From Candidatus Neomarinimicrobiota bacterium (lineage in GTDB: Bacteria > Fidelibacterota > UBA2242 > B5-G15), in assembly GCA_017656425.1 (NCBI GenBank), contig JACDNV010000010.1, positions 1 to 64,000 of the forward strand: DNA of 64,000 nucleotides. The letters are read 5' to 3'. The notes beneath the pieces were generated by a model. The model did no database searches and was not told the origin of the DNA. It was given only the letters and a program-made list of their open reading frames with translations. The position numbers and the translations under genes are program-made. Below are positions 17,805 through 60,335 of this stretch, piece after piece (within the stretch, counting starts at the first letter, position 1; each line of letters starts with the position of its first letter).

Positions 17805-18179
17805 GTCGTCACGAGGAGCGAGTAATACGAGCGACGAAGTGATCTGTTCTGCTAAGTTTGAAGGCATTATGGATTGTGTTTCTACATTCAGACTGATTGA
17901 TGCTCTTTCAAAGCAGATTGCTTCGCTTACGCTCGCAACGACGGGTGTGAGTATAGATTGCTTCGCTTACGCTCGCAACGACGGGTGTGGGTGCAGATTG
18001 CTTCGCTTACGCTCGCAACGACGGGTGTGGGTGCAGATTGCTTCGCTTACGCTCGCAACGACGGGTAAGTGGGTAGGCTGCTTCGCTGACGCTCGCAACG
18101 ACGGGTGTGGGGCGACACCTGCCATGTCATTGCAAGGAGCGAACGCCAGTGAGCGACGTGGCAATCTAAACTGAAAAAT
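17805..18179. repeat. Palindromic repeat block, copy A (375 bp)
   Basis: GC-rich block in AT-rich surroundings. It opens with an imperfect hairpin (TCAC 17809-17812 against GTGA 17839-17842). A unique-looking 70-base spacer follows, then five 40-bp tandem units, then a second hairpin (ATTGC 18129-18133 against GCAAT 18161-18165). It ends CTGAAAAAT. Copy B at 18535-18829 matches it nearly base for base except for two fewer tandem units (375 minus 295 equals 80). Confidence 0.9.
17915..18114. repeat. Five 40-bp tandem units in copy A
   Basis: The string AGATTGCTTCGCTTACGCTC recurs at an exact 40-base period (starts 17915, 17955, 17995, 18035). A diverged fifth unit starts at 18075 with GGCTGCTTCGCTGACGCTC. 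Each unit can form a TTGC/GCAA hairpin. It resembles a shortened reverse complement of the flanking hairpins, so all are one repeat family. Open frames through the array are periodic artefacts. Confidence 0.9.
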
Positions 18180-18183
18180 CAAC

Positions 18184-18465
18184 CTAACTGTAAAAATCCA
18201 TCCACTCAGGATTAACGCTATTTATAAGATCTATCTTCTTCCTTCTTGACCCTGCTTTTATCTGCTTCTCCCTTGAAATGGCATCAATCGGATTTTCATA
18301 AATCTCATAGTAAACAAGCTTGTTTATATTATATCTTTTCGTAAATGTGCTTCCAATACCAACCTTATGCTCATAAACTCTAACTTTTAGATTATTTGTA
18401 ACACCTGTATATAATACCGTATTATTTTTATTTGTCATTATATATACGTAATAAAGCTTTTGCAT
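18184..18465 (-). CDS. GIY-YIG nuclease family protein between repeat copies
   Basis: 93 aa, the usual size of stand-alone GIY-YIG proteins (COG2827/UPF0213). The catalytic core is present: YYVYIMTNKNNTVLYTGVT (the GIY and YIG strands), Arg in NNLKVRVYEHK, and Glu in AISREKQIKAGSRRKKIDLI; it ends NPEWMDFYS. The cellular substrate of this family is unknown. The gene starts 70 bases from repeat copy B and ends five bases from copy A, so repeats enclose it tightly. This suggests that the nuclease and repeats form one unit. Confidence 0.88.
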   Translation of the reverse strand: MQKLYYVYIMTNKNNTVLYTGVTNNLKVRVYEHKVGIGSTFTKRYNINKLVYYEIYENPIDAISREKQIKAGSRRKKIDLINSVNPEWMDFYS

Positions 18466-18534
18466 TTTTTATTATACCTTTTGATTATTGTATTACATTT
18501 TTTAAAATAATCAATATTAATTTTAATCCTACCA

Positions 18535-18829
18535 GTCGTCACGAGGAGCGAGTAAAACGAGCGACGAAGTGATCTGCTCTGCTAAGTTTGAAGGCATTAT
18601 GGATTGTGTTTCTACATTCAGACTGATTGATGCTCTTTCAAAGCAGATTGCTTCGCTTACGCTCGCAACGACGGGTGTGAGTATAGATTGCTTCGCTTAC
18701 GCTCGCAACGACGGGTGTGGGTGCAGATTGCTTCGCTTACGCTCGCAACGACGGGTGTGGGGCGACACCTGCCATGTCATTGCGAGGAGCGATCGATAGT
18801 GAGCGACGTGGCAATCTAATCTGAAAAAT
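18535..18829. repeat. Palindromic repeat block, copy B (295 bp)
   Basis: Direct-repeat partner of copy A, in the same orientation: same opening hairpin, same spacer, three 40-bp units (starts 18645, 18685, 18725), same closing hairpin (ATTGC 18779-18783, GCAAT 18811-18815) and same CTGAAAAAT end. The few differences are concentrated in the hairpin loops, for example GAACGCCAGT in A against GATCGATAGT in B. Confidence 0.9.
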
Positions 18830-18872
18830 TGAGGACAGTATGGAAAAGCAACCCATAGCTGTTACTGGAACA

Positions 18873-18964
18873 CTCTTTCAAAGCAGATTGCTTCGCTTAC
18901 GCTCGCAACGACGGGTAAGTGGGTAGGCTGCTTCGCTGACGCTCGCAGTGACGGGTAGGGGCAG
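18873..18964. repeat. Partial repeat copy C
   Basis: Starts with CTCTTTCAAAGCAGATTG, the spacer end found in copies A and B. It then has two 40-bp units (starts 18885 and 18925). The second is the diverged AAGTGGGTAGGCTGCTTCGC type seen in copy A but absent from copy B. The hairpin ends are missing and a decayed further unit (CAGGTTGCTTC) follows. The rest of 18965-19106 shows no gene. Confidence 0.8.
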
Positions 18965-19106
18965 GTTGCTTCTTTACCTCTTACATTAATGTGCTGAGTG
19001 TAACAGACTGGTTTTGCTTTTACTCATAGCGGTATATAATACATTATAAAACTTTTATTTGTTATGCAAATTAATAGCGTTTTTTAGATTATTCTTGTTA
19101 ATACAT

Positions 19107-20486: not shown

Positions 20487-20700
20487 AATATCCCCCTCAC
20501 TTTTACTTTATAAAGTTTAATTATTATTTTTAAATGTTTCTACTAATATTTTTAGATATTAATAAGCATTTTATAGTTTTTTATCTATTAAAAATACTTT
20601 AAACTGAGCTGAATATGCTATATTTCAAAGTTTAAAATTTTATTGACTATATTTTAATATAAAACTAAATTGCCGGTTGCATGACTGTAAGTTAATTAGA

Positions 20701-20708
20701 AAGGAGGG
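20701..20708 (+). promoter_or_regulatory. Ribosome binding site that decides the efp start
   Basis: AAGGAGGG, nearly the full anti-Shine-Dalgarno complement, ends eight bases before the ATC codon at 20717-20719. An in-frame TAG at 20711-20713 lies between them, so translation cannot begin further upstream. The first ATG at 20747 has no such site. Confidence 0.75.
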
Positions 20709-20716
20709 AATAGAAA

Positions 20717-21277
20717 ATCGCAACAACAGCAGACATCAGAAATGGAATGGTAATATTTTGGAACAATGGTTACTGGAAAATATTGGAATTCCAGCATGTT
20801 AAAATGGGGCGTGGTGGTGCATTTGTTCGGACAAAGCTTAAGAATTTAAGAACCGGACAGGTTGTGGAAAATACATTTAGATCTGGAGAGAAACTTGATG
20901 AGGTGAGGCTGGAGTCCAGACAAATGCAGTATCTTTATTTTGACGGCAGTAGTTATATTTTTATGGATACTGAAACTTACGAACAGATTCCAATAAGTAG
21001 TGAGCTTATCGAAGGTGTGAAAGTTTTTATAAAGGAAAATGATGAGGTTAATGTTTTATTTCATGATGCAGAACCTCTTGATATAAATTTACCAACATAC
21101 GTTATTTTGCAAGTTGTAGAGACAGAGCCCGGTATTAAGGGTGATACTGTCAGCGGTGCAACAAAACCTGCGAAATTAGAGACAGGACTGGTAGTACAGG
21201 TTCCTCTGTTCATAAATGAGGGGGATATGGTAAAAATAGACACAAGGGCAGGGGAATACATTGAAAGAGTTAAATAG
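20717..21277 (+). CDS. efp: Elongation factor P, apparent ATC start codon
   Basis: EF-P rescues ribosomes stalled at polyproline. Read from ATC at 20717 it has 186 residues, the family length, and begins (M)ATTADIRNGMVIFWNNGYW, which matches the conserved EF-P start. Beginning at ATG 20747 would lose the first ten residues. The three beta domains are intact and the end is VKIDTRAGEYIERVK. At the domain I loop tip, residues 29-36 read KMGRGGAF: Arg32 replaces the Lys usually modified there (PGKGGAF) and Met replaces Pro. accB follows ten bases later. Confidence 0.93.
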   Translation: MATTADIRNGMVIFWNNGYWKILEFQHVKMGRGGAFVRTKLKNLRTGQVVENTFRSGEKLDEVRLESRQMQYLYFDGSSYIFMDTETYEQIPISSELIEGVKVFIKENDEVNVLFHDAEPLDINLPTYVILQVVETEPGIKGDTVSGATKPAKLETGLVVQVPLFINEGDMVKIDTRAGEYIERVK

Positions 21278-21286
21278 AGAGGTTTT

Positions 21287-21772
21287 ATGGGAACCCAGGA
21301 AATTTTAGAGTTAGTAAAAATAATTGAATCTCACGACATTGAGGAGATAGAGATAAAGAAATGGTTCGGGACGACTATTAGAATAACAAAACGGAGGAAT
21401 GGTTCAATTACAACGGCAGTTTCACGTGGTGGCAATGTTAAGACTCAACCTGAGTTAGTAAAAACTATAGAAGAGGGTAAAGACAAGGAATTACCAAAAG
21501 AAGAGGTAGCTGAAGAGGTAAAATCTGATAAACTTTATGAAGTAAAGACTCCTATTGTTGGTACCTTTTATCGTGCACCATCCCCTGATGCGGACCCATA
21601 CGTAAAGGTTGGAGACCATGTTACCCAAGGTAAGCCTTTATGTATTATTGAAGCAATGAAAATTATGAATGTAATTGAGTCTGAAGTATCCGGTACAATA
21701 AAAAAGATACTTGTTGAAAATGGTCAACCTGTGGAATATAATCAAACATTATTTATAATTGAGAAAGATTAA
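21287..21772 (+). CDS. accB: Acetyl-CoA carboxylase biotin carboxyl carrier protein
   Basis: BCCP (161 aa) carries biotin between the two half-reactions of acetyl-CoA carboxylase in fatty acid synthesis. N-terminal [20 protein letters not shown], then an acidic linker, then the biotinyl domain [20 protein letters not shown]. The target lysine is Lys125 in EAMKIMN. It forms an operon with accC 21 bases later. accA/accD are not in the window. Confidence 0.97.

Positions 21773-60262: not shown

Positions 60263-60335
<73 letters not shown>

Follow-up and report, generated by a model that had tools for sequence, protein, structure and literature searches.

We analysed the gene for elongation factor P (efp) in a stretch of 64,000 nucleotides from the genome of an uncultured Candidatus Neomarinimicrobiota bacterium (the window). 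Translation of efp very probably begins at an AUC codon at position 20717. We favour a joint explanation, to which we assign a probability of roughly 0.75, in which the ordinary initiator fMet-tRNA(CAU) would initiate at this AUC with the help of a strong Shine-Dalgarno (SD) sequence, and in which EF-P output would be sensitive to initiation factor IF3. The features of the locus are as follows (G001 is the second genome of the family, described below):

20643..20671, + strand: candidate promoter TTGACT-17-TAAATT, which would give a leader of ~38 nt and aligns with TTGACA-17-TAAATT in G001
20700..20707, + strand: SD sequence AAAGGAGG of efp, 9 nt before the ATC and identical in G001
20711..20713, + strand: in-frame TAG, read from the sequence, which excludes earlier efp starts
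20717..20719, + strand: probable ATC start codon of efp, at the same position in G001, with the upstream frame closed by the TAG at 20711
20717..21277, + strand: efp, elongation factor P, 186 codons from the AUC plus stop
20747..20749, + strand: first in-frame ATG of efp (codon 11), without an SD; the mechanical ORF start and the likely automatic annotation
21287..21772, + strand: gene for an accB-like biotin carboxyl carrier protein, next after efp, named from its translation; same gene order in G001

The start codon and N-terminus of EF-P

From the TAG at 20711 the efp frame continues with AAA (20714), ATC (20717-20719), GCA ACA ACA GCA GAC ATC AGA AAT GGA and ATG (20747). No ATG, GTG or TTG lies in this frame between the TAG and the ATC, and the TAG itself bears out the claim of an earlier note on this DNA that no start is possible before the ATC.

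The protein read from the ATC matches the Pfam models EFP_N, EFP OB and Elong-fact-P_C, all above cut-off, and thus has the three domains of an EF-P (KOW-like N-terminal, OB and C-terminal), with a full N-terminus provided that translation starts at the ATC. Solved EF-P structures in the PDB align with residues 4-185 of the ATC-started protein, and the gene is present in a single copy in the genome. The EFP_N score is 95 bits from the ATC (match from residue 3) versus 80 bits from the ATG at 20747, a start that loses 8 profile positions. D6 and G10, which never vary among 12 EF-Ps drawn from several phyla, and T4, which hardly varies, all precede Met11. The earlier note had placed the coded N-terminus at the ATC and had held that a start at the ATG would cost conserved residues; both points agree with these results. 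At the tip of EF-P, residue 32 is Arg instead of Lys (KMGRGGAF; KMARGGAF in G001). A search for EarP gave no match, but control queries likewise gave none.

G001 (locus L031) belongs to a different genus and is the sole other genome of the family that was compared (n=2 for the family). Its EF-P is 83% identical to that of the source genome in protein and 75% in DNA (421/558 bases). Its efp has an ATC at the same position behind the same SD, AAAGGAGGGAA, with no upstream in-frame ATG, GTG or TTG, so the outcome that the earlier note had named as adverse, relatives all beginning at the later Met, was not what the comparison gave. A 1-nt indel separates the two genomes between SD and ATC, and the alignment is gap-free from the ATC onward; the spacer is therefore not read in the efp frame in both genomes. 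Across codons 2-10 the two sequences differ at 0, 2 and 6 sites in codon positions 1, 2 and 3; four of the codon changes are synonymous and two alter the residue (T to I, R to K). The spacer indel and the excess of third-position differences together argue that coding begins at the ATC.

With no usable ATG, GTG or TTG, an AUH codon at SD distance, and a start kept in G001 and absent from the other families of the order, efp very probably joins the few genes known to start with AUH, and the mechanism is not new. In the open-access literature our searches turned up no efp gene described as having an AUH start.

Shine-Dalgarno sequence, leader and alternative starts

The motif AAGGAGGG lies at 20701-20708, 8 nt from its end to the ATC, as the earlier note had it. 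Pairing was evaluated against the anti-SD CACCTCCTTT, taken from four 16S genes of the same order; the source assembly has no 16S gene, and some tRNAs are absent from it too. The one match in the genome to the 16S 3'-end pattern lay outside any rRNA and was discarded. Among 18 efp genes of the order, the strongest predicted SD/anti-SD duplex (-12.4 kcal/mol) belongs to exactly the two ATC-started genes, the others ranging from -5.9 to -11.3 kcal/mol. The strong SD looks like compensation for a weak start codon, although the 18 genes come from related genomes and are not independent.

The candidate promoter motif is no commoner than in shuffled sequence, and folding of the efp leader in both genomes of the family revealed no structure beyond that of shuffles. 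Control by a riboswitch or hairpin is unlikely given this lack of structure and the shortness of the leader, if the candidate promoter is right. The leader contains a mini-ORF at 20681-20695 (ATG ACT GTA AGT TAA); the G001 leader contains an unrelated one (GTG AAG CAT TTT ATT TTT TAG) that ends directly before the SD.

Three other accounts of the start were weighed against initiation at the AUC. The real start could be the ATG at 20747, giving a protein ten residues shorter: no canonical start comes earlier in the frame, and G001 retains Met11. We regard this as very improbable, since that ATG has no SD, its use would leave the strong SD before the ATC without a gene and discard T4, D6 and G10, the Pfam score falls, and the substitutions in codons 2-10 are of the coding type. 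About equally improbable is that initiation is coupled to the leader mini-ORF, or that another frame is used with slippage; a tiny ORF does end just before the SD in both leaders, but the two differ in sequence and length and are without an SD, and short ORFs are frequent by chance. An assembly or sequencing error for ATG would need only one base, but the same ATC recurs in an independent assembly of another genus at the identities given above, which in practice refutes an error.

Elsewhere, at window positions 17805-18972, 227-nt direct repeats (99% identical, at 17805 and 18535) enclose a small GIY-YIG-like ORF (18184-18465, - strand). In the repeats a 40-nt unit, GCAGATTGCTTCGCTTACGCTCGCAACGACGGGTGTGGGT, recurs in arrays. 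Contig C9 carries a 97% identical copy of the ORF close to related repeats, and most searched genomes of the order have weaker homologues. ORF and repeats are possibly a mobile repeat cassette.

Rarity of such starts in the phylum and the genome

A single pattern for the N-terminus of efp was run over 245 genomes from the phylum; it misses genes with another second codon, and the counts are hence those of a sample. The version of the pattern with ATH matched in 8 genomes, and only the matches in the two family members are efp; the six others fell by chance in frames that are unrelated or closed. The version with ATG, GTG or TTG matched in 138 genomes. After four evident non-efp rows had been set aside, 136 comparable rows comprised 105 ATG, 17 TTG and 14 GTG starts. 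Within the same order efp starts are mostly TTG or GTG (TTG in all cases read in family f4, TTG in f3, GTG or ATG in f2). GTG or TTG efp starts recur outside the order, in families f31 and f8 and in one genus of f26, so that weak starts of this gene have probably evolved on more than one occasion within the phylum.

Start codons of the source genome were surveyed in a 784-kb sample (28% of the genome; 621 ORFs of at least 100 codons) that deliberately included the stretch with infC as a positive control. A strong SD was linked to a canonical start in 141 ORFs (109 ATG, 18 GTG, 14 TTG) and to an ATH or CTG, with no SD-linked canonical start, in 5. The only convincing ATH starts in the sample are those of efp (ATC) and infC (ATA). 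Three other candidates were dropped: a ribosomal-protein frame with a nearby ATG, a frame in which the match lay deep inside, and a glycine-rich overlapping frame.

The classic example of a gene with an AUH start is infC. Its frame in the source genome (locus L116, G000 contig C7, about 40220) lacks a canonical start ahead of codon 77 and most likely starts, to judge from the sequence, at an ATA 7 nt after AGGAGG. At all 24 infC loci examined in the order and its neighbours (L111-L134), the interval from the upstream stop to the beginning of the match is free of ATG, GTG and TTG. Much of the order shares an ATA with GAA A(A/G)A directly behind it, frequently with an ATC in front (ATC ATA GAA); the exact infC start codon in family f4 is ambiguous. 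That infC lacks a canonical start indicates that this organism uses AUH starts where such starts are known. The analogy with infC drawn by the earlier note is thereby strengthened: the organism's own infC has no ATG, GTG or TTG start, but the term 'autoregulated' does not carry over directly to efp because EF-P, unlike IF3, does not select start codons.

Initiator tRNA, IF3 and known systems

One initiator-like tRNA was found, at window position 60263, with anticodon CAT, a GGG/CCC anticodon stem and an unpaired 1:72. A special initiator tRNA was considered and rejected, the only initiator-like tRNA in a tRNA set that is incomplete (tRNA-Ile(GAU) was not found) having CAU. We propose that the ordinary fMet-tRNA(CAU) would initiate efp at AUC 20717, that mispairing at the third base of the codon would weaken initiation, and that the 8-bp SD 9 nt upstream would hold the initiator in place and offset the weak AUC. 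IF3 makes 30S complexes unstable unless they sit on ATG, GTG or TTG, and infC, which has ATT or ATC starts, is regulated in this way (PMC5472188). Since IF3 rejects such complexes, efp output would be expected to follow IF3 inversely, with less EF-P made when IF3 abounds and more when it is in short supply, as with infC.

We hold IF3-dependent control of efp only tentatively, at rather less than an even chance. A competing account has nearly even odds: the AUC may set no more than a low, fixed rate of EF-P synthesis, or may reflect near-neutral drift offset by the SD, with no regulation by IF3. The sequence fits a constant low level as well as it fits IF3 control, efp starts in the order are already weak (TTG or GTG) with SDs of varying strength, and E. 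coli pcnB is described as translationally limited by its AUU. Since TTG suffices for most of the order, the AUC could be a drift to a weak start. Two observations point the other way, neither decisively: TTG and GTG, though weak, are not used here, and infC alone joins efp in having a convincing ATH start in the sample. A bolder reading, likewise at less than an even chance, is a joint arrangement in which IF3 discrimination in this lineage would govern infC (AUA) and efp (AUC) together, coupling initiation stringency to the relief of proline stalling.

A conserved AUC in a core elongation-factor gene would widen the set of genes open to IF3 control and would give a simple link between IF3 and EF-P. 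Gene finders limited to ATG, GTG and TTG will cut the first ten residues from EF-P and will miss the correct start of IF3 in the order.

AUH starts are rare, and to our knowledge only a handful are well documented in bacteria (infC, pcnB, and sigR with GTC). The likeness of efp to infC (AUU, AUC or AUA; autoregulated in E. coli) lies in a translation-factor gene with an AUH start, a strong SD and no canonical alternative; the infC product itself discriminates between starts and so closes a feedback loop, whereas control of efp would run one way from IF3. pcnB differs from efp in encoding poly(A) polymerase, and we know of nothing that ties this enzyme to elongation. It resembles efp in that its product is not an initiation factor and its AUU start limits translation, according to PMC9410913 and its reference 76; the same source gives AUU as the start of both infC and pcnB in E. 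coli (PMC9410913). Streptomyces sigR shares with efp a conserved noncanonical start, a strong SD (AGGAGGTG) and misannotation by gene finders (PMC5472188). It starts at GTC rather than ATC, and its repression by IF3 has been shown experimentally (PMC5472188), whereas IF3 control of efp is a proposal. Closest in gene and position are the TTG- and GTG-started efp genes of the same order, which also have a weak start, but one whose codons IF3 accepts and whose predicted SDs are weaker.
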